Of a DNA stretch of 64,000 bases, positions 8,295-52,352 are shown in pieces. This DNA is from Marivita sp. (GTDB taxonomy: Bacteria; Pseudomonadota; Alphaproteobacteria; Rhodobacterales; Rhodobacteraceae): assembly GCF_020055635.1 (NCBI RefSeq), contig NZ_JAIPUT010000002.1, positions 124,001 through 188,000 on the forward strand. The letters are read 5' to 3'. Every line of letters starts with the position of its first letter. Within the stretch, counting starts at the first letter, position 1. The notes beneath the pieces were generated by a model that saw only the letters and a program-made list of their open reading frames with translations, had not been told where the DNA came from and did no database searches. Both the position numbers and the translations under genes were made by a program.

Positions 8295-9326
8295 TTACAG
8301 TGGCATGAGGGCCCAGTAATCCAGATCCAGAAGCACATGCGGCAGGTACTTTCCGGTCTCGTCCTTGAGGTCGAACGACCCGCCCGCCGAGGTCGCCACC
8401 AGCCGCAAGCGCACCGCGCCGACACCGGGGGCGGAGGTTTCGGCCTTGTCCAGCACCTCGGACCAGGCGCGCAGGGTGGTGCCGCTGAAACAGGGGTTGG
8501 CATGGGCGCCCGCGTTCAGCCCGACGATCATCTGCGCATTGGCCAGCCCGTTGAAGGACAGCGCCCGCGCCATGCTGATGACATGCCCGCCATAGATCAG
8601 CCGCTGGCCGTCGGGGCGGAAGGTGGCGTCGAAATGCACCTTGGCGGTGTTCTGCCAGAGGCGCGTCGCCATCATGTGCTCGGCTTCCTCGATGGTCACG
8701 CCGTCCACGTGGTCGATCTTTTCGCCGATCTCGTAATCGCCCCAACGATGCGGTTCGCCCGCCAGTTCGAAATCGTACCCGGTGAAATCGAGGCCCCGCG
8801 GGATTGCCAGATCCTCGACCGACAGCACCGGCTTGAGGTCGGGCACGACGGTCTCGGGCGCGGCCGCATCGGCATCGCGTTTGCGCACCATCACCCAGCG
8901 GACATATTCCATCACCAGCTCGTCATGTTGGTTCAGCCCGCGCGTCCGCACCCAGACGACACCTGTCTTGCCGTTGGAGTTCTGCTTGAGTCCGATCACC
9001 TCGGATTCCGACCGCAACGTGTCGCCCGGCCAGACCGGCGTCACCCAGCGCCCCTCGGCATAGCCCAGGTTGGCGACCGCGTTCAGAGACACGTCCGGAA
9101 CCGTCTTGCCGAAGATCACGTGAAACGCGATCATGTCATCCAGGGGGCTGAACGGCAGGCCGCAGTCCTGCGCGAACTGATCCGACGAATACAACGCGTG
9201 CCGTGCCGGGTAGAGCGCATGATAGAGCGCGCGCTCTCCCATCTTGACCGTGCGCGGCACCGCGTGGCGGATCACCTGCCCGATCGCATAGTCTTCGAAA
9301 AATCTGCCAGCACTGGTTTTGGTCAT
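8295..9326 (-). CDS. mch: Mesaconyl-CoA (2-methylfumaryl-CoA) hydratase, double hotdog
   Basis: The 343-residue protein is two MaoC-like hotdog domains in tandem, with the length typical of the EMC-pathway hydratase. The N-terminal domain includes RTVKMGERALYHALYPAR; the second has the DHVDGVTIEEAEHM region and a FDATFRPDGQRLIYGGHV block. It hydrates mesaconyl-CoA to beta-methylmalyl-CoA. The start MTKTSAGRFFEDY (9326) is chosen over an upstream ATG at 9380, which would overlap the DUF1737 gene. Being in one operon with the malyl-CoA enzyme mcl2 supports the assignment. Confidence 0.9.
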   Translation of the reverse strand: MTKTSAGRFFEDYAIGQVIRHAVPRTVKMGERALYHALYPARHALYSSDQFAQDCGLPFSPLDDMIAFHVIFGKTVPDVSLNAVANLGYAEGRWVTPVWPGDTLRSESEVIGLKQNSNGKTGVVWVRTRGLNQHDELVMEYVRWVMVRKRDADAAAPETVVPDLKPVLSVEDLAIPRGLDFTGYDFELAGEPHRWGDYEIGEKIDHVDGVTIEEAEHMMATRLWQNTAKVHFDATFRPDGQRLIYGGHVISMARALSFNGLANAQMIVGLNAGAHANPCFSGTTLRAWSEVLDKAETSAPGVGAVRLRLVATSAGGSFDLKDETGKYLPHVLLDLDYWALMPL

Positions 9327-9366
9327 CGCCGCACCCTTGGTTCCGGTCGTGGTTCGTTCGAGTGTG

Positions 9367-10127: not shown

Positions 10128-10985
10128 TTACCCCGCTTGGATGGTTTCGATTGCCTCTGCTTTTGCCAGTATTTCACGGGCCGTGGCAACGTGAAGGTTT
10201 TCGACGATCTTTCCATCGACCACGGCAACGCCCTGTCCGCCCGCTTCGGCCTCTTCAAAGGCAGCGATCTGGCGGCGGGCGAGGTCAATCTCCTCTGGGG
10301 CGGGCGCAAATGCGGTATTGGCGATATCCACCTGCGCCGGATGGATCAGCGTCTTGCCGTCAAAGCCCATGTCGCGGCCCTGCGTGCATTCGGCCCTCAG
10401 CCCCTCGTCATCCTTGAACGCGTTGTAGACGCCGTCCACGATCACCAGCCCTTCCGCCTTGGCCGCCAGCAGGCAGATCGACAGCGACGTGAGCAGCGGC
10501 AGGCGGTCCGCACGGAACCGGGTCTGCAATTCCTTGGCCAGATCATTGGTGCCCATCACCATGCCCGCCATCTTGGGATGCGCCGCGATCTCGGCCGCGT
10601 TCAGCATCCCGCGCGGGGTTTCCATCATCGCCCAGATCGGCAGGTCGCGTGTGATCTCGGCCAGCGCATCAAGCTGGGCGGCAGATTCGACCTTGGGCAA
10701 CAGCACCGCGTCGCAATCCATCTGCGCCACCGCCTCTGCATCGGCCCGGCCCCAGTCGGTGTCCAGCCCGTTGATCCGCACGATCCGCACCCGCGGACCA
10801 TAGCCTCCGGCAGCCAGAGCGGCCTTGAGGGTTTCCCGCGCGGCGGGCTTTTCCTCCACCGCGACCGCGTCTTCCAGATCGAAGATGATCGCATCAACAG
10901 GCAAGCCGCGCGCCTTTTCCAGCGCCCGGTCCTTTGAACCGGGGATGTAAAGAACCGAGCGATAGGGGCGGCTGCGCATGTCCAT
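10128..10985 (-). CDS. mcl2: (3S)-malyl-CoA thioesterase / HpcH-HpaI aldolase family (Mcl2-type)
   Basis: The 285-residue citrate-lyase-beta-like protein has the N-terminal RSVLYIPGSKDRALEKA, the Mg/CoA region IIFDLEDAVAVEEK, the METPRGMLN motif and a GKTLIHPAQ block. At 285 residues it fits Mcl2, which hydrolyses (3S)-malyl-CoA to malate, better than the longer lyase Mcl1 (about 318 residues). A lyase activity cannot be excluded from sequence. It leads the operon containing mch. A motif shared with the other EMC promoters lies 24 bp upstream of the ATG. Confidence 0.8.
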   Translation of the reverse strand: MDMRSRPYRSVLYIPGSKDRALEKARGLPVDAIIFDLEDAVAVEEKPAARETLKAALAAGGYGPRVRIVRINGLDTDWGRADAEAVAQMDCDAVLLPKVESAAQLDALAEITRDLPIWAMMETPRGMLNAAEIAAHPKMAGMVMGTNDLAKELQTRFRADRLPLLTSLSICLLAAKAEGLVIVDGVYNAFKDDEGLRAECTQGRDMGFDGKTLIHPAQVDIANTAFAPAPEEIDLARRQIAAFEEAEAGGQGVAVVDGKIVENLHVATAREILAKAEAIETIQAG

Positions 10986-11008
10986 GGCGGTCTCCTGAGG
11001 TGTCGTGC

Positions 11009-11023
11009 GTAATATTGTTGCGT
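11009..11023 (-). promoter_or_regulatory. EMC-associated motif upstream of mcl2
   Basis: On the gene strand this reads ACGCAACAATATTAC. It differs at one base from the site upstream of ecm (29987-30001), and related sites precede ccr and mcd. A weak -35/-10 pair (TTGCAG, 16 bp, TAGCTC) ends 4 bp before it, which would place it at the transcription start. A TTTTGCAAAA palindrome lies at 11039-11048. The regulator is unknown; RamB-type regulators of acetate assimilation are one candidate by inference. Confidence 0.5.
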
Positions 11024-11174
11024 CAGAGAGCTACATTCTTTTGCAAAAACTGCAAGGCCCGATCTGCCGCAGTGCAGAAAAATCTGCTGCACCCGCATTC
11101 CGAACGCCGCGTTAACCAGATCACAACCGCTGCGCCCGACGCTCTGCCCATCACAGCTGAACAGGGGCAAGCCG

Positions 11175-26993: not shown

Positions 26994-27314
26994 TCAGATC
27001 TTCAGGTCTTCCATGGTCTTTCCCGAAGCCAATGCCTCGATCACCCAGTTCGGCTTGCGGCCTTTTCCGGTCCAAGTCTGGTCCGGGCTTTCCGGATTCT
27101 GGTATTGGGCAACGCCCTTGGAGCCTTTCTTGCCCTTTGCGGGCGCGCTTCCAAGCAGTTCGTCGAGCGAGAAACCATACTCTTTCGCGGCGGATTCGGC
27201 TGCTTTCTTGGCCTGCGTAAGGCGCCGCGTTTCTATGGTTTTCAGCGCTTTTTCCGCTTCCCTGATCAGCTTTTTCAGCTCTTCTTTGGACATGTTGTTC
27301 AGGTCGACGCTCAT
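26994..27314 (-). CDS. H-NS family nucleoid-associated protein (HvrA-like)
   Basis: The 106-residue protein has an N-terminal coiled coil (about residues 5-45, Lys/Glu-rich) for oligomerisation and the C-terminal H-NS DNA-binding motif [15 protein letters not shown]. The Lys/Gly-rich linker with an [12 protein letters not shown] stretch is typical of alphaproteobacterial members. Such proteins silence AT-rich DNA; HvrA in Rhodobacter capsulatus regulates photosynthesis and nitrogen genes. GGAGAG precedes the ATG. Its promoter region (27315-27424) is AT-rich and contains a gtcaattc/gaattgac dyad (27372-27379 and 27406-27413), which could reflect autoregulation. Confidence 0.9.
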
Positions 27315-27979: not shown

Positions 27980-29956
27980 TTATTCGGCTGCCACTGCCTT
28001 TGGATCGGCAAGGGTGACGATATCCATCATGATCGTATTCAATTCGAAATCCTTGGGCGTGTAGACTTTCGCCACGCCCATCGAGCGCAGGCGCTTTGCA
28101 TCTTCGTCGGGAATGATTCCGCCGACGATGACCGGGATATGACCAAGCCCGGCATCACGCATCCTGGTCATCATGTCTTCGACCAGGGGAATATGGCTGC
28201 CCGACAGGATCGACAGGCCGACGACATGAACCTCGTTCTCCTGCGCCGCAGCGACGATCTGATCCGGGGTGAGGCGGATGCCTTCGTAGTCGATCTCCAT
28301 GCCGCAATCGCGGGCGCGGAAGGCGATCTGTTCTGCGCCGTTGGAATGACCGTCAAGGCCGGGCTTGCCGACAAGGAACTTGAGTCGGCGGCCGAGCTTG
28401 TCGCTGACGGCGTTGACCGCTTCGCGGATGTCGTCCAGCCCTTCGGTCTTGTTGGACACGGATTTCGACACGCCGGTCGGGCCACGGTATTCGCCGTAGA
28501 CGGCGCGCATTTCGCCGGCCCATTCACCGGTGGTGACGCCGGCCTTGGCGCAGGCGATCGAGGCGGGCATGATGTTTGCGCCGTCTTTGGCCGCCGTACG
28601 CAGGTCGTCCAAGGCTTTTTGTGCCGCGTCGTTGTCACGCTCTGCGCGCCACGCGTTCAGGCGGTCGATCTGCTCCTGCTCGACCGCAGGATCGACCGTC
28701 ATGATGCCGCCGTCTTCGCTCTGGAGCGGGGAGGGTTCGCCTTCGATCCATTTGTTCACGCCGACGACGATGGTTTCGTTGCGTTCGATCCTGTTCAGGC
28801 GGTCGGCGTTTGAATCAACCAGACGGCCCTTCATGTAGTCGATGGCACCGATGGCGCCGCCCATTGAATCGAGGTTCGCAAGTTCGGCGCGGGCACCTTG
28901 CTTGAGTTGTTCGACCTTGGCATCGACGGCGGGGTTGCCCTCGAAGAGGTCATCGAATTCCAGAAGGTCGGTTTCATAGGCGAGGATCTGTTGCATCCGC
29001 ATCGACCATTGCTGATCCCACGGGCGGGGCAGGCCGAGCGCTTCGTTCCAGGCAGGAAGCTGCACGGCGCGGGCGCGGGCTTTTTTCGACAGCGTGACGG
29101 CCAGCATCTCGATCAGGATGCGGTAGACGTTGTTTTCCGGCTGCTGTTCGGTCAGGCCAAGGGAATTGACCTGCACGCCATAGCGGAAACGGCGGAATTT
29201 GGGATCGGTGACGCCGTATCGGGTTTCGAGGATTTCATCCCACAGATCAACAAAGGCGCGCATCTTGCACATCTCGGTGACGAACCGGATGCCGGCGTTG
29301 ACGAAGAAACTGATCCGACCGCAGAGCGCCGGGAAGTCTGCGTCGGGAACACGGGGTTTGAGTTCATCCAGAACGGCGACGGCGGTGGCCAGCGCGAATG
29401 AGAGTTCCTGTTCGGGCGTCGCGCCCGCCTCTTGCAGATGGTAGGAACAGACGTTCATCGGGTTCCACTTGGGAATATGCGTGTAGCAATATTCCGCCAC
29501 GTCCCCGATCATCTTGAGCGACGGTTTCGGCGGGCAGATATAGGTGCCGCGCGACAGGTATTCCTTGATCAGATCGTTCTGCACGGTGCCTTGAAGTTGT
29601 GACACGTCCGCGCCCTGTTCCTCGGCCACGGCGACATAAAGCGCCAGCAGCCACGGCGCGGTCGCGTTGATCGTCATGGAGGTGTTCATCTGATCGAGCG
29701 GGATCTGATCGAACAAGGTCCGCATGTCGCCCAGATGGCTGACCGGAACGCCCACCTTGCCGACCTCGCCGCGCGCCAGGACATGATCGCTATCATAGCC
29801 GGTCTGCGTGGGCAGGTCGAAGGCGACCGACAGGCCGGTCTGGCCCTTGGACAGGTTCGACCGGTAGAGCGCGTTCGAGGCCTGCGCGGTGGAGTGGCCC
29901 GCATAGGTGCGGATGAGCCAGGGTTTGTCACGGGTCGGTGTCTGTGCGTCGGTCAT
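27980..29956 (-). CDS. ecm: (2R)-ethylmalonyl-CoA mutase, coenzyme B12-dependent
   Basis: The 658-residue protein combines a methylmalonyl-CoA-mutase TIM barrel (RTYAGHSTAQASNALYR, then VAFDLPTQTGYDSDH) with a C-terminal B12-binding domain carrying the DXHXXG motif (GLDGHSNGAEQ) and the GLSILSGSH block. It converts ethylmalonyl-CoA to methylsuccinyl-CoA. Single-polypeptide length, the tract MNVCSYHLQEAGA and presence of ccr, mcd, mch and mcl2 nearby favour Ecm over methylmalonyl-CoA mutase or MeaA-like proteins. The start MTDAQTPTRD is used; the frame is open 19 codons further up, but that would run through the shared regulatory motif. Confidence 0.88.
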   Translation of the reverse strand: MTDAQTPTRDKPWLIRTYAGHSTAQASNALYRSNLSKGQTGLSVAFDLPTQTGYDSDHVLARGEVGKVGVPVSHLGDMRTLFDQIPLDQMNTSMTINATAPWLLALYVAVAEEQGADVSQLQGTVQNDLIKEYLSRGTYICPPKPSLKMIGDVAEYCYTHIPKWNPMNVCSYHLQEAGATPEQELSFALATAVAVLDELKPRVPDADFPALCGRISFFVNAGIRFVTEMCKMRAFVDLWDEILETRYGVTDPKFRRFRYGVQVNSLGLTEQQPENNVYRILIEMLAVTLSKKARARAVQLPAWNEALGLPRPWDQQWSMRMQQILAYETDLLEFDDLFEGNPAVDAKVEQLKQGARAELANLDSMGGAIGAIDYMKGRLVDSNADRLNRIERNETIVVGVNKWIEGEPSPLQSEDGGIMTVDPAVEQEQIDRLNAWRAERDNDAAQKALDDLRTAAKDGANIMPASIACAKAGVTTGEWAGEMRAVYGEYRGPTGVSKSVSNKTEGLDDIREAVNAVSDKLGRRLKFLVGKPGLDGHSNGAEQIAFRARDCGMEIDYEGIRLTPDQIVAAAQENEVHVVGLSILSGSHIPLVEDMMTRMRDAGLGHIPVIVGGIIPDEDAKRLRSMGVAKVYTPKDFELNTIMMDIVTLADPKAVAAE

Positions 29957-29986
29957 GTCGGCTCCGTCAACGGCGAGATTCGCCCG

Positions 29987-30001
29987 GTAATCTTGTTGCG
30001 T
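29987..30001 (-). promoter_or_regulatory. EMC-associated motif upstream of ecm
   Basis: On the gene strand this reads ACGCAACAAGATTAC, 31 bp before the ATG and 7 bp after the -10 of the predicted ecm promoter, i.e. at the likely transcription start. Close copies precede mcl2, ccr and mcd. A position over the start suggests repression or a promoter-clearance role, not classical upstream activation. Confidence 0.5.
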
Positions 30002-30008
30002 TTCGCGA

Positions 30009-30038
30009 TGCATACGTGAAATTTTGTGTCGCTGTCAA
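30009..30038 (-). promoter_or_regulatory. Predicted sigma-70 promoter of ecm
   Basis: A consensus -35 TTGACA (plus-strand TGTCAA at 30033-30038) is followed after 18 bp by TATGCA (plus-strand TGCATA at 30009-30014) on the minus strand. Transcription would start about 30002, giving a short leader of about 45 bases. Confidence 0.6.
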
Positions 30039-30229
30039 TTCGCCGCACTGCGGCGTCCCGATTTTTTCTGCGTAACAGCATATCCCATGCCCGTGGCATT
30101 GGAATAGGCAAAGCGATGCCGCACAGAAGGTTACAGAGGGCGACCGGTGTCGTGATTTTCATGTGTCTGTCGCGTTGTTGCGCGCCATAAGTTGTTTACC
30201 AAGCGCAGCTTCGTTGCGAGAGTGCAGGA

Positions 30230-31573: not shown

Positions 31574-31636
31574 GGGATTCCGCGGGTGCGAAAGGATTTT
31601 CTGCAATCGCTCGGTCATAAAGTTACAAAAAATACC

Positions 31637-31651
31637 TGAATCTTGTTGCAT
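31637..31651 (+). promoter_or_regulatory. EMC-associated motif upstream of ccr
   Basis: TGAATCTTGTTGCAT on the plus strand is the reverse complement of a site close to those at ecm and mcl2 (ATGCAACAAGATTCA). It lies about 86 bp before the ccr ATG. It overlaps CATAAT (31649-31654), a possible -10, and its TTGTTG could instead act as a -35 for CATATT 18 bp further on, so the promoter itself is not settled. Confidence 0.45.
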
Positions 31652-31736
31652 AATTTCAAGCGCGCCCATATTTCAACCCTAGAAGCCGCGATTCTGCATT
31701 GCGGCACGAACCAGAGATGACGCTTAGGAGGCCCCG

Positions 31737-33023
31737 ATGGCACTGGATCAGCACACCGGCATCGCCGCGTATGATGCGCCTGAAAAAGACTTGTACGAAA
31801 TCGGCGAAATGCCCCCTCTCGGCTATGTGCCCAAGCAGATGTATTCATGGGCCATTCGTCGCGAACGTCACGGCGAACCGGAACAGTCTTTCGAGGTCGA
31901 AGTCGTCGATACATGGGATATCGACAGTCACGAGGTGCTGGTTCTCGTGATGGCGGCGGGTGTGAACTATAATGGCGTCTGGGCCGGTCTTGGACAGCCG
32001 ATCAGCCCGTTCGATGGCCACAAGGCCGATTACCATATTGCCGGGTCCGATGCGTCGGGCATCGTCTGGAAGGTCGGGGACAAGGTAAAGCGCTGGAAGG
32101 TCGGCGACGAGGTTGTCATCCACTGCAACCAGGATGATGGTGACGATGAGGAATGCAACGGCGGCGATCCGATGATGTCTCCGACCCAGCGGATCTGGGG
32201 CTACGAGACACCGGATGGCGCGTTTTCGCAGTTCACGCGCGTGCAGGCCCAGCAGTTGATGCCGCGGCCCAAGCACCTGACCTGGGAAGAAAGCGCGTGT
32301 TACACGCTGACGCTGGCCACCGCTTACCGGATGCTGTTTGGTCATGCACCGCACGAGCTGAAGCCGGGTCAGAACGTGCTGGTCTGGGGCGCGTCTGGCG
32401 GTCTGGGGTCGTATGCCATCCAGCTGGCCAATACGGCGGGTGCCAATGCGATCGGTGTCATTTCGGACGAGGACAAGCGCGATTTCGTCATGTCGATGGG
32501 CGCCAAGGGCGTCATCAACCGCAAGGATTTCAAGTGTTGGGGTCAGTTGCCCACGGTGAACACGCCTGAATACAAGGAATGGTTCACCGAGGCGCGCAAG
32601 TTCGGCAAGGCGATCTGGGACATCACCGGCAAAGGCAAGAACGTCGACATGGTGTTCGAACATCCCGGCGAGTCGACGTTCCCGGTGTCGACGCTGGTCT
32701 GCAAGAAGGGCGGCATGGTGGTGATCTGTGCGGGCACAACCGGGTTCAACTGTACCTTCGACGTGCGCTACATGTGGATGCACCAGAAGCGCCTTCAGGG
32801 CTCGCATTTTGCGCATCTCAAGCAGGCCGCTTCGGCGAACCAGCTGATGGTCGAACGCCGGCTTGATCCGTGCATGTCGGAAGTGTTCCCGTGGGAGGAA
32901 ATTCCGCAGGCGCATACCAAGATGCTGCGCAACGAACACAAGCCGGGAAACATGGCGGTTCTGGTGCAATCGCCGAAAACCGGGCTGCGCACTTTTGAGG
33001 ATGCGCTGGCGGCCAGATCGTAA
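31737..33023 (+). CDS. ccr: Crotonyl-CoA carboxylase/reductase
   Basis: The 428-residue MDR-family enzyme reductively carboxylates crotonyl-CoA to (2S)-ethylmalonyl-CoA with NADPH and CO2, the key step of the EMC pathway. It has the N-terminal MYSWAIRRERHGEP, the Ccr-specific stretch IHCNQDDGDDEECNGGDPMM, the nucleotide-binding motif VWGASGGLGSYAIQLA and the late block MWMHQKRLQGSHFAHLKQA. Length and motifs are those of Ccr and not of simple enoyl-CoA reductases. GGAGG precedes the ATG. Confidence 0.96.
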   Translation: MALDQHTGIAAYDAPEKDLYEIGEMPPLGYVPKQMYSWAIRRERHGEPEQSFEVEVVDTWDIDSHEVLVLVMAAGVNYNGVWAGLGQPISPFDGHKADYHIAGSDASGIVWKVGDKVKRWKVGDEVVIHCNQDDGDDEECNGGDPMMSPTQRIWGYETPDGAFSQFTRVQAQQLMPRPKHLTWEESACYTLTLATAYRMLFGHAPHELKPGQNVLVWGASGGLGSYAIQLANTAGANAIGVISDEDKRDFVMSMGAKGVINRKDFKCWGQLPTVNTPEYKEWFTEARKFGKAIWDITGKGKNVDMVFEHPGESTFPVSTLVCKKGGMVVICAGTTGFNCTFDVRYMWMHQKRLQGSHFAHLKQAASANQLMVERRLDPCMSEVFPWEEIPQAHTKMLRNEHKPGNMAVLVQSPKTGLRTFEDALAARS

Positions 33024-33234: not shown

Positions 33235-33450
33235 ATGGGACATGATTGGATCATAGACGTGTTGACCGACCTCAAGTCGTTTGCGCTAGCGAACGATCTC
33301 GATGCGCTGGCTGCCAAATTGGATGATACGCAGTTGGTGGCGCGGGCTGAGCTTGTGTCGCACGGCAAGGGGATAGGCCGTGGGATTCTTGGAGAAAGTG
33401 CTTCAATTGGACGATGTGATCGGGCAGTTGGAGTGCGCCGAACATCTTGA
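33235..33450 (+). CDS. Small conserved-looking protein upstream of and overlapping luxR
   Basis: The 71-residue product begins MGHDWIIDVLTDLKSFALAND and has an amphipathic, mostly helical N-terminal half (DLDALAAKLDDTQLVARAEL) and a basic C-terminus. The start has a near-perfect ribosome site, GGAGGTGA, 7 bases upstream. The frame overlaps the luxR gene by 71 bases. I recall similar short proteins upstream of luxR-type genes in Rhodobacterales, but know no function. No promoter is assigned; the preceding region to 33084 is AT-richer than its surroundings. Confidence 0.65.
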   Translation: MGHDWIIDVLTDLKSFALANDLDALAAKLDDTQLVARAELVSHGKGIGRGILGESASIGRCDRAVGVRRTS

Positions 33451-34108
33451 GGAACTGCAAAGCGTCATCGAATGGCTGCGGGATCACTACGCGGTCGATG
33501 ACATGGTGTATCACTGGGTGTCGAGCAATGGCACACAGTACGGATGCGGAACCTATGACCCGGCCTGGGTTCAGAGATACCTGGAGAAAGGCTATCTTCG
33601 CATCGATCCGGTTGTGCTTGGCTGCTACCAGCGGTTTCACCCGGTCGACTGGAAGCGGCTGGATTGGTCAGGCAAGGCCGCGCGCGCGTTCCTGAACGAT
33701 GCGGTCGCACATGGGGTCGGCAATCAGGGCTATTCGATCCCCATTCGCGGCCCCAACGGCCAATTCGCGCTTTTCACCGTCAGTCACAGTTGCGACGACG
33801 CGGAATGGGAAAGTTTTACCGAGATTCATCGCCGTGATCTCATCCTGCTGGCGCATTACTTCAACCAGACCGCGCTCAAGCTCGAGCCGGGCCGGACGCC
33901 GGAGCCGACACAACCGCTGTCACCGCGCGAGGTCGAGACGATGACGCTTCTGGCGGTGGGATACAGCCGTGCGCAAGTGGCGGAAACGCTGTCGATCTCG
34001 GAACATACCTTGCGGGTCTATATCGAAAGCGCGCGGTTCAAACTGGGGGCGATGAACACCACCCATGCCGTGGCGCGGGCGATCGCGCGCGGGCAGATCG
34101 TGGTGTGA
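33380..34108 (+). CDS. LuxR-family quorum-sensing regulator
   Basis: The 242-residue regulator has an N-terminal autoinducer-binding domain with the expected residues: tryptophan and tyrosine in AWVQRYLEKGYLRIDPV, the DP pair, W in HPVDWKRL and G in GVGNQGYSIPI. The C-terminal HTH is LSPREVETMTLLAVGYSRAQVAE to SEHTLRVYIESARFKLG. It should bind an acyl-homoserine lactone and DNA. The start is a GTG (33380) inside the upstream small gene, with AGGGG before it; later starts would cut the first helix of the ligand domain. luxI follows 123 bp downstream. Confidence 0.88.
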   Translation: MGFLEKVLQLDDVIGQLECAEHLEELQSVIEWLRDHYAVDDMVYHWVSSNGTQYGCGTYDPAWVQRYLEKGYLRIDPVVLGCYQRFHPVDWKRLDWSGKAARAFLNDAVAHGVGNQGYSIPIRGPNGQFALFTVSHSCDDAEWESFTEIHRRDLILLAHYFNQTALKLEPGRTPEPTQPLSPREVETMTLLAVGYSRAQVAETLSISEHTLRVYIESARFKLGAMNTTHAVARAIARGQIVV

Positions 34109-34231
34109 GCACGGCGCAATTGCTGTTTCCATATGCGCGACAATCTGCCGTGAAACAGCGTCCGCACGCTCTGGAAAGAAACGATTCACCTTTGAACCTC
34201 AGCCTGTCCGCCAGCAACGGAGGGCATGCTC

Positions 34232-34870
34232 ATGATTCGGTACGTCTATGGTGATCAACTGGCGAAATTTCCGCATCTTGCGCGGACCATGTTCGAGGAT
34301 CGGGCGGATCAGTTCCGGACGCGGCTTGGCTGGGACGTGAGCGTCGACGCCGAAGGGCAGGAACGCGACGATTATGACGATCTGAATCCGCTTTACGTGA
34401 TCTGGGAGACGGCGAGCGGTGTCCATGGCGGATCGATGCGGTTTCTGCCGACGACCGGTCGCACCATGGTGAATGATCATTTCGTTAACCTGACCCACGG
34501 CGTGCCGTTCCAAAGCCCGTTGATCTGGGAATGCACGCGCTTCTGCCTGTCGCGCAACACCGAGGCGGGCACGGCCGCGGCGCTCATGCTGGCGGGCGGG
34601 GAGATCATGCAGGGCTTTGGTATCCGGCATTTCGTTGGCGTGTTCGACGCGCGGATGGTGCGGATCTACACCCGGATCGGCGCCGCACCCGAGGTGCTGG
34701 GATCGCAGGGCGAGGGTCGGCAGGCGATCAGCGTCGGCCTCTGGGAGTTTTCCGAGGCGGCGCAGAAACAGGTGTCTCGCGTGGCCGGTGTACCTTTGGC
34801 CGCGTCGCGATCCTGGTTCGACGCGGCGTTCGGAACCGATGTGCCACAACCCTTCATAAGTGCTGCCTGA
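34232..34870 (+). CDS. Acyl-homoserine-lactone synthase (LuxI family)
   Basis: The 212-residue protein has the conserved LuxI residues: R, F and W in RADQFRTRLGWDV, aspartates in DDYDDLNPLYV, R in GSMRFLPTTGR and the E/R pair in LIWECTRFCLS. It makes an acyl-HSL from S-adenosylmethionine and an acyl carrier. The ATG at 34232 is chosen over 34226 because GGAGG then lies at a normal spacing. A gctgttt/aaacagc dyad (34122-34159) lies in the luxR-luxI gap, but no standard lux box is evident. The acyl chain length cannot be predicted. Confidence 0.93.
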   Translation: MIRYVYGDQLAKFPHLARTMFEDRADQFRTRLGWDVSVDAEGQERDDYDDLNPLYVIWETASGVHGGSMRFLPTTGRTMVNDHFVNLTHGVPFQSPLIWECTRFCLSRNTEAGTAAALMLAGGEIMQGFGIRHFVGVFDARMVRIYTRIGAAPEVLGSQGEGRQAISVGLWEFSEAAQKQVSRVAGVPLAASRSWFDAAFGTDVPQPFISAA

Positions 34871-50516: not shown

Positions 50517-52205
50517 CTAGCCCAGAAGACGTCGCGCAATCACCTGTGCCTGGATCTCGGCGGCACCTTCGAAGATGTTCAGGATGCGCGCGTCGCAGAG
50601 GATACGGCTGATCTTGTATTCGAGCGCGAACCCGTTGCCGCCGTGGATTTGCAACGCGTTGTCCGCCGCAGCCCATGCCACCCGTGCGCCGAGCAGCTTG
50701 GCCATGCCGGCCTCCAGGTCGCAGCGGCGGCCTTCGTCCTTTTCGCGGGCCGAGAAATAGGTCAGCTGACGCGCGATCATGATCTCGACAGCCATCATCG
50801 CCAGTTTCGACGCAACGCGCGGAAAATGGATCAGCGCCTTGCCGAACTGCTTGCGATCCTGTGCGTATTTCATGCCTTCGTCCAGCGCCGATTGCGCGAC
50901 GCCGATGGCGCGGGCGGCGGTCTGGATGCGAGCGGATTCGAAGGTCTCCATCAGCTGCTTGAAGCCCTTGCCCTCTTCCATGCCCAGAAGGTTCTCGCCC
51001 TTGACCTTGAAGTCGTCGAAGTTGAGGGTGTATTCTTTCATGCCGCGATAACCGAGCACTTCGATCTCGCCGCCCGAGATGCCCGGATCCTGCCACGGTT
51101 CCGCATCGGTGCCGGGGGTCTTTTCGGCCATGAACATCGACAATCCCTTGTAATTGTCGGTGTCGGGCACCGTGCGGGCAAGGACTGTCATCACATGAGT
51201 GCGGGCGGCGTGGGTGATCCATGTCTTGTTGCCGTTGAGGATCCAGTCTCCGTTCTCGTCCTTCACGGCCTTGGTCCGCAGCGATCCGAGGTCGGATCCG
51301 GTGTTGGGTTCGGTGAAGACGGCCGTGGGCAGGATCTCACCCGACGCCAGACCGGGCAGCCATTTGGCCTTTTGTTCGTCGGTGCCGCCAGCAATGACCA
51401 GTTCAGCCGCGATCTCGGACCGGGTGCCGAGCGAGCCGACGCCGATATAGCCGCGCGACAGTTCTTCGGACACGACGCACATGGAATTCTTGCTCAGGCC
51501 AAACCCGCCATGTTCTTCGGGAATGGTCAGGCCGAACACGCCCATCTCGGCCAGCTCGTCGATGATCTCCATCGGGATGAGTTCATCCTTGAGGTGCCAG
51601 TCCTGCGCGTGGGGTTCCACCTTGTCGAGCGAGAAGCGGCGAAACTGTTCGCGGATCATCTCGAGCTCGTCGTCGAGACCACAGGCGCCGACGGTCAGTT
51701 CGGCGCTGCGTTCCTGCATCAGTTCAACAAGGCGCACGCGGGCTGCCTGGGTGTTGCCGCTTTGGGTCAGGTGCATGACCTCGGGTGTCATCAGAACGCG
51801 CATGTCGTCCTGCCCAAGACCGATATCCTGAAGCCGAACCATTTCGCCCTGGTTCATCTGGATGCCGCCATAGATCTGCCAGAGGTATTCGCCAAAGGCG
51901 ATCTGGTGGATCAGCTGTTCGACCTCGCCGAATTTGCCATCTGCATCGAGCCGTTCGGCCCAGCCCTGCATCTGGCGCAGCGATTCGACATATGTCGCCA
52001 ACCACGCAAGACCGTGCGCGGCGGTCTGGTTGTCTTCGATCAGGGCTCCGGAAATGCGGCCATCCGCTTCGACCATGCCGCGCACCTTCGCCGTCGCCAT
52101 GTCCAGCACGGCGTTGGCGGGCTCGAGTGCGGCGGCCGTCAGCGACACCAGGTTCGGCAGGATCGTTTCGGTTGTCAGGGTCAAGTCTTGTCCGTCATGG
52201 GCCAT
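50517..52205 (-). CDS. mcd: (2S)-methylsuccinyl-CoA dehydrogenase
   Basis: The 562-residue acyl-CoA dehydrogenase has a normal C-terminal catalytic part (EEHGGFGLSKNSM, AVFTEPNTGSDLGS, QDRKQFGKALIHFP, QIHGGNGFALEYKISR). An extra N-terminal domain of about 160 residues (LPNLVSLTAAALEPANAVLD onward) is the distinguishing mark of Mcd. It oxidises methylsuccinyl-CoA to mesaconyl-CoA, feeding Mch, and passes electrons to ETF. The start MAHDGQDLT has AGGA 9 bases upstream; the frame is open 54 codons higher without support. It lies directly downstream of pckA. Confidence 0.9.
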   Translation of the reverse strand: MAHDGQDLTLTTETILPNLVSLTAAALEPANAVLDMATAKVRGMVEADGRISGALIEDNQTAAHGLAWLATYVESLRQMQGWAERLDADGKFGEVEQLIHQIAFGEYLWQIYGGIQMNQGEMVRLQDIGLGQDDMRVLMTPEVMHLTQSGNTQAARVRLVELMQERSAELTVGACGLDDELEMIREQFRRFSLDKVEPHAQDWHLKDELIPMEIIDELAEMGVFGLTIPEEHGGFGLSKNSMCVVSEELSRGYIGVGSLGTRSEIAAELVIAGGTDEQKAKWLPGLASGEILPTAVFTEPNTGSDLGSLRTKAVKDENGDWILNGNKTWITHAARTHVMTVLARTVPDTDNYKGLSMFMAEKTPGTDAEPWQDPGISGGEIEVLGYRGMKEYTLNFDDFKVKGENLLGMEEGKGFKQLMETFESARIQTAARAIGVAQSALDEGMKYAQDRKQFGKALIHFPRVASKLAMMAVEIMIARQLTYFSAREKDEGRRCDLEAGMAKLLGARVAWAAADNALQIHGGNGFALEYKISRILCDARILNIFEGAAEIQAQVIARRLLG

Positions 52206-52253
52206 GAATCGTGTCCTTTCAGCTTTGTCGCTGGATATCCACTTTGCAGGTGC

Positions 52254-52269
52254 AGCGCAACAAAAATAC
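52254..52269 (+). promoter_or_regulatory. EMC-associated motif upstream of mcd
   Basis: The plus strand reads AGCGCAACAAAAATAC; the core GCAACAA and the ATAC end match the sites at ecm and mcl2. It lies about 50-64 bp before the mcd ATG. On the gene strand TTGGAA is followed 17-20 bp later by GGGTATTTT, so the motif overlaps the likely -10 and start. Orientation relative to the gene is opposite to that at ecm and mcl2. Confidence 0.4.
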
Positions 52270-52352
52270 CCAATTAACCTTCGATTTGTTCCAATCTTTC
52301 GTCTTGAATTGCTGCTCTGCGGCGCCATGCCGGGTGCAGCTGCAGAAAGAAG

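Follow-up and report, generated by a model that had tools for sequence, protein, structure and literature searches.

The closest described precedent for the DNA sites treated here is RamB of Paracoccus denitrificans, a member of the ScfR family that binds two boxes, 32 bp apart from start to start, at the glyoxylate operon (PMC10370305). According to the accessible part of that report, the ligands of RamB are CoA esters of the ethylmalonyl-CoA (EMC) pathway, which go with a shift between tetramer and dimer, and the EMC genes are up 8- to 15-fold in a RamB mutant; the regulator of the glyoxylate cycle was identified, the signal turning the EMC pathway down was left unknown, and in the same part of the text no direct regulator of EMC genes is named (PMC10370305). 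For PhaR, the consensus of Sinorhizobium meliloti contains YGCRNYGCR in the available part of its description (PMC12542648). CcrR of Methylorubrum extorquens, going by the title of its report, is a TetR family activator of ccr and, like the system proposed below, a dedicated EMC-gene regulator. PccR of Rhodobacter sphaeroides, of the ScfR family, is said to use the site TTTGCAAA-N4-TTTGCAAA, which differs from the dyad described here. A 64,000-nucleotide stretch of a Marivita sp. genome (contig NZ_JAIPUT010000002.1, positions 124,001 to 188,000; hereafter the window) carries a shared element in front of four EMC transcription units, ecm, mcl2-mch, ccr and mcd. The element shares with the RamB system the pairing of boxes about three helical turns apart and the connection to acetate metabolism, while its letters are different and its spacing is 31 instead of 32 bp. 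Judged from sequence comparison, these sites are probably (roughly 85%) operators of one dimer-forming transcription factor that would control a dedicated regulon of ecm, mcl2-mch, mcd, mcl1, ccr and phaB, together with pntA in some genera, the membership being included in that estimate.

The element was first pointed out in an earlier note as a 15-mer, and its four copies (29987-30001 at ecm, 11009-11023 at mcl2, 31637-31651 at ccr and 52255-52269 at mcd) are indeed the sole matches of ACGCAACAAGATTAC at three or fewer mismatches in the window. Four matches compare with 0.67 expected, and four or more were obtained in 1 of 100 shuffles of the 64 kb. Without mismatch, GCAACAANATTAC occurs at two places in the 4.94-Mb genome, namely ecm and mcl2; at one mismatch or fewer it occurs at 10 places, mcd among them, against 6 for the reversed control. 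When the four 200-bp promoters were shuffled 400 times with their dinucleotides kept, a pair agreeing in 14 of 15 positions arose by chance in 14 runs and a four-way match equal to the observed one in none. Gene identities were taken from domain-model matches with equivalog cut-offs applied. Only the ccr product exceeds a curated cut-off (TIGR01751); those of ecm, mcl2 and mcd match their own enzyme classes below the equivalog cut-offs, and because of this their EMC names follow the initial finding and the linkage. The genes are as follows.

27980-29965, minus strand: ecm, a mutase gene by domain models, named from the initial finding and its linkage to ccr
10128-10985, minus strand: mcl2, a CitE-like lyase by domain models, below equivalog cut-offs
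8295-9332, minus strand: mch-like hydratase downstream of mcl2, by domain models, below equivalog cut-offs
31737-33023, plus strand: ccr, crotonyl-CoA carboxylase/reductase, TIGR01751 over cut-off
50517-52205, minus strand: mcd, an acyl-CoA dehydrogenase by domain models, below equivalog cut-offs

Upstream DNA of ecm, mcl2, ccr and mcd orthologues was read from 30 genomes per gene, 17 of the own genus and 13 of other genera. In these promoters the 15-mer turns out to belong to a 17-bp dyad, GCGCAA-N5-TTGCGC, which is often paired with a second one 31 bp away, and the original description of the motif is enlarged in this sense. The sites are conserved, as the idea of a shared motif demands: within the genus the dyad is kept in 16 of 17 genomes at ecm and likewise at mcd, and in all 17 at mcl2, where it is clear in 27 of the 30 genomes overall. 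One arm is usually weaker in the own genus, and both arms can be perfect in other genera, for example in mcl2 of genome G018 (GCGCAATATTGTTGCGC). At ecm the arms co-vary in places, GCGAAA occurring with TTTCGC or ATCGC. A weight matrix was trained on 16 distinct single sites of ecm and mcl2 from the genus (excluded were ecm of G013, misplaced by the extraction rule, and the mcl2 rows of G003 and G008); it gives 22.4 to mcl2 operator B, 14.0 and 9.6 to the two ecm sites, 11.6 and 1.5 to those of mcd and -5.0 to ccr operator B. The mcl1 promoter of the same genome also carries a dyad pair. The candidate operators and the promoter elements of the window are these.

29985-30001, minus strand: ecm operator B, 17-bp dyad ACGCAACAAGATTACCG, at about +1 to +17
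30016-30032, minus strand: ecm operator A, GCGACACAAAATTTCAC, 31 bp from B and filling the spacer between -35 and -10
30033-30038, minus strand: ecm -35, TTGACA, by eye
30009-30014, minus strand: ecm -10, TATGCA, by eye
11007-11023, minus strand: mcl2 operator B, ACGCAACAATATTACGC, the best single site of the window
11028-11044, minus strand: possible weak partner, 21 bp from mcl2 operator B, in the own genus only
31612-31628, plus strand: ccr candidate operator A, CGGTCATAAAGTTACAA, conserved, with a low matrix score of 1.1
31643-31659, plus strand: ccr candidate operator B, TTGTTGCATAATTTCAA, in the 31-bp register, degenerate in the own genus
31637-31651, minus strand: ccr copy of the earlier note, including a -35, TTGCAT (31646-31651)
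52255-52271, minus strand: mcd operator B, GGGTATTTTTGTTGCGC, whose TTGCGC is a -35
52286-52302, minus strand: mcd operator A, ACGAAAGATTGGAACAA, matrix score 1.5, 31 bp from B

For 12 promoter sets, the distance between two sites that scores best with the matrix was sought from 17 to 61 bp (45 lags), and lag 31 came first in eight: the genus and family sets of ecm, of mcl1 and of mcd, the genus set of phaB and the family set of ccr. None of 1000 permuted matrices put one lag first in eight sets; two reached seven, both at lag 31 and both correlated to the true matrix. The two best lag-31 pairs of the whole window are those of ecm and then mcd. At the perfect phaB dyads (n = 44, one locus contributing two), the site at +31 scores positively in 66% of cases, compared with 0.5% in the background. 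Typical pairs are GCGACATAAAGTTTCGC-14-ACGCAACAAGATTACAC at ecm, GCGCAAGAATGTTGCGT-14-GCGCAACTTGATTGCGC at phaB of G019 and ACGCAATGACGTTACAT-14-ACGAACGATTGTTGCGC at ccr of G031. The seven pntA sites, perfect by the search itself, have no partner. At ccr, lag 31 is first in the 13 other genera and ranks 12 in the own genus; the ccr copy of the earlier note is present as written, but lies 8 bp off the register seen in other genera. Its register, first-ranking in the own genus, was rejected as that of the family.

Furthermore, perfect dyads gather at genes of the same metabolism. In 149 genomes of the family, GCGCAANNWNNTTGCGC gives 188 perfect dyads, spread over 103 genomes, against 43 for the reversed pattern, a control whose dinucleotide make-up differs from that of GCGCAANNWNNTTGCGC. 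Sixty-four loci were read, 30 picked automatically and 34 by hand, mostly for their A/T cores, so that only the former give an unbiased count: 14 of the 30 stand at pathway genes (phaB 10, and mcl2, mcl1, mcd and ccr 1 each), and one each at glyA and at a 2-hydroxyacid dehydrogenase gene. A further scan, over named genomes, returned at least 118 loci, 80 of them with titles, from which membership of the Rhodobacteraceae was read. Among the matches listed, 15 of the 19 titled Rhodobacteraceae loci are at phaB (10), pntA (4) or ccr (1), two more at panB and two at neither, and none of the 61 titled loci from outside the family is at any of 14 reference genes. Eight of the 38 untitled loci listed are at such genes, namely phaB (2), pntA (1), mcl1 (1) and CitE-like genes (4), the last being only 31-35% like mcl1. 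The only perfect A/T-centred dyad of the own genome precedes the acetoacetyl-CoA reductase gene phaB by 58 bp. The proposal of a dedicated EMC regulon is thus well supported by the comparison, since orthologous promoters keep the sites and phaB and mcl1 of the own genome carry them; its boundary, though, would be wider than the EMC pathway, taking in phaB, pntA and perhaps panB. Dyads at acnA, pdhA and glyA are single cases and are not claimed for the regulon. In two genera (L344, L373) a perfect dyad stands close to panB, a gene of pantothenate and CoA synthesis. Perfect dyads were also seen, in a single genome each, upstream of one Lrp-type gene (L296) and of one gene read by eye as ArsR-type (L219).

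In this reading the operator would be a 17-bp dyad of the form GCGCAA-N5-TTGCGC around an A/T core, used as two often imperfect copies exactly 31 bp apart at several promoters and as single perfect copies at pntA. Because 31 bp correspond to three helical turns, a pair of dimers would occupy one side of the helix and may bind cooperatively. The dyads cover the core promoter at varied places, the spacer and +1 at ecm, the -35 at mcd, and the -35 and -10 at phaB, and these varied positions are easier to reconcile with a repressor that occludes the promoter than with an activator working from a single fixed site. Such a repressor would keep RNA polymerase out until a signal from the pathway, perhaps a CoA thioester, releases it, with an independent PhaR-type element as a further input (see below).

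There are several observations that weigh against this picture. Counted by genes instead of promoter sets, 1 of 1000 permuted matrices equalled the observed five. The ccr promoters of the own genus favour lag 23, the 31-bp partner being degenerate there (-5.0); mcl2 has no 31-bp partner, only one strong site with a weak 21-bp partner confined to the genus; and in the small phaB family set of six genomes lag 31 is second. The ecm pair is absent from G008, and phaB is without the dyad in 6 of the 17 genus genomes, in which its upstream DNA differs. In the own genome CGCAA-N5-TTGCG is found at 17 places against 10 for the control, and most of the 15 places read are intragenic. The one-mismatch matches of the genome scan are likewise mostly inside genes. 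The earlier note had looked to the promoters of epi, mcl1, phaA/phaB and mutAB for further members; phaB and mcl1 carry sites, the own mcm region has no convincing one, and epi was not located. Activation may also take the place of repression. Lastly, a search among gene neighbourhoods, ScfR-type genes and PhaR assigned no protein to the dyads.

The neighbourhoods of ecm and ccr were compared in the window and 20 other genomes (19 of the family and one of another family), and regulator families seen in three or more were listed. Besides LuxR and an H-NS-like protein, none occurs in at least three of the 21. A LuxR/LuxI quorum-sensing pair (33380-34870) lies immediately downstream of ccr; for each of its two genes, 10 of the 21 neighbourhoods, counting the window, contain relatives. 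The gene for the H-NS-like protein is located downstream of ecm (26994-27314), with relatives in seven of the 21, again counting the window.

Among other explanations, binding by RamB or by its paralogues ScfR-1 and ScfR-2 is unlikely, although it fares best. In its favour, an ACGAAATATAATTTCAC-like dyad stands exactly 78 bp before the start of ScfR-2 itself in six of the six genus genomes read (L454, L455, L495-L498), G017 having no such dyad in its ScfR-2 promoter. Against this, the published 80-bp RamB fragment, with the boxes TGACAAACCTTACA and TGACAATACTGACT and an 18-bp spacer, reaches at best -6.8 with the matrix, compared with up to 22.4 for the own sites, though the own ccr operator B scores only -5.0, and its best pairs at lag 31 or 32 are negative. 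Because the fragment fails to match, the caution of the earlier note in leaving the motif unlinked to RamB was justified. ScfR-2 was detected in 11 of the 17 genomes of the genus, which without exception keep operators, and G022, in which ScfR-1 was not found, keeps the ccr and mcd pairs. The ScfR-1 promoters show no high-scoring dyad (best 3.0; 20 of 23 loci readable).

A third ScfR-like protein of the XRE type (L533:2202-3518) is a guess that deserves a little more credit, doubtful as it still is: as a tetramer on the 31-bp pair it might sense EMC CoA thioesters and, together with PhaR and its link to polyhydroxybutyrate, gate acetyl-CoA between storage and assimilation across the Rhodobacteraceae. 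It has an HTH_3 domain and a weak ScfR C-terminal domain, and its gene lies next to those of a response regulator and of a large histidine kinase. The protein is present in 20 of 21 fetched stretches, including those of G019, which has no PhaR, and G022, which has no ScfR-1, the identity being 36 to 48% in the genomes furthest removed; in the sole miss, G016, the stretch had been retrieved for a different fragment, and G004 and G020 were outside the sample. The promoter of this gene has no conserved dyad.

The operator reading must also be set against the possibility that the dyad between phaA and phaB is an intrinsic terminator or an RNA hairpin, which is very improbable. In many genera its flanks extend the dyad to long inverted repeats, in some followed by runs of T (by eye), which speaks for such a role. 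However, the A/T loop is constrained, in a comparison where the search pattern prescribed the arms GCGCAA and TTGCGC; its core is seen again at pntA, mcl1 and mcd, where no long arms of this kind are present, and the +31 partner lies in the promoter. At some phaA-phaB intergenic sites (e.g., L188, L189, L206, L295) it looks, by eye, as if a phaA terminator had been built around an operator.

Less credible again is the idea that the shared letters are mere core-promoter elements, TTGTTGC and TTGCGC serving as -35 boxes at ccr and mcd and recurring by chance at ecm and mcl2. Here the original placement of the sites, at the -10 or transcription start of ecm, mcl2 and mcd, is to be corrected in part. 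The ecm and mcl2 sites do lie just downstream of a -10 assigned by eye; the mcd site supplies a -35 and not a -10, as TTGCGC-N17-TA is present in 27 of 30 genomes, and the ccr copy overlaps a -35 as well (TTGCA-N18-TA in 26 of 30). The letters thus do form -35 boxes with conserved spacing at these two genes, but the ecm and mcl2 dyads are outside the hexamers (at ecm, 25 of 30 genomes have TTGAC-N19-T[AT]), the two arms are kept or co-vary, and the 31-bp spacing is constant though the pair sits at differing promoter positions from gene to gene. Between the -35 and -10 of mcd, TGCANNTGCAAA (within 52232-52260) is kept in many genera and is, by eye, explained by neither the dyad nor the PhaR-type element.

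The operators are accompanied by a second conserved element of PhaR type at the same four promoters, each recognized as a match to YGCRNYGCR and given without strand.

30044-30052, no strand: CGCACTGCG, upstream of ecm
11068-11076, no strand: CGCAGTGCA, upstream of mcl2
31695-31703, no strand: TGCATTGCG, in the ccr leader
52251-52259, no strand: element overlapping mcd operator B

YGCRNYGCR is present at ecm, mcl2 and ccr in 29 of 30 genomes each and at mcd in 28, compared with 19% of random 200-bp stretches of the window and with 0 to 12 of 30 genomes for three control patterns of the same shape; it is near background at mcl1 (7/21) and phaB (4/23). The variant reported from R. sphaeroides, CTGCNNNGCAG, is exact in 2, 1, 2 and 4 of 30 at the four promoters and is reached with one mismatch in 25, 27, 26 and 16. 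PhaR itself was searched for in 37 genomes of the family, and 36 have the gene. The exception is G019, a single contig rated 100% complete without a PhaR match, in which YGCRNYGCR is absent from all four promoters (two mismatches to CTGCNNNGCAG at each), against 115 of 116 promoters having it otherwise; this loss of the element alongside PhaR is no more than suggestive, coming from one lineage. In the same genome the dyad pairs of ecm, mcd, mcl1 and phaB persist, as does the dyad at mcl2, the phaB pair having one perfect dyad and another one base off. Dyads kept without PhaR while YGCRNYGCR is lost indicate two separate elements, and PhaR is therefore an unlikely binder of the dyads. That it binds them because their arms hold TGCG/CGCA, as its own sites do in sharing these half-site letters, has hardly any likelihood, given this one lineage. 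The half-sites are 5 bp apart in PhaR sites versus 11 in the dyads. The PhaR promoters show no high-scoring dyad (best 6.9; 14 of 39 loci readable, nine of them from other families).

The motif was not described in the literature searched, including the available parts of PMC10370305, PMC12542648 and PMC11323563, and a search within PMC4344238 gave no match; most subscription journals were outside this scope, so this is no proof of novelty. On the comparative evidence it appears to define a regulon that is new but ordinary in type, its operator geometry being unusually clear and conserved. A conserved operator with a fixed 31-bp pairing would make the regulator that switches the EMC pathway in Rhodobacteraceae findable by pull-down and its logic testable by point mutations. 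The joint loss of PhaR and its elements in one genome suggests, in addition, that a separate storage signal acts at the same promoters.
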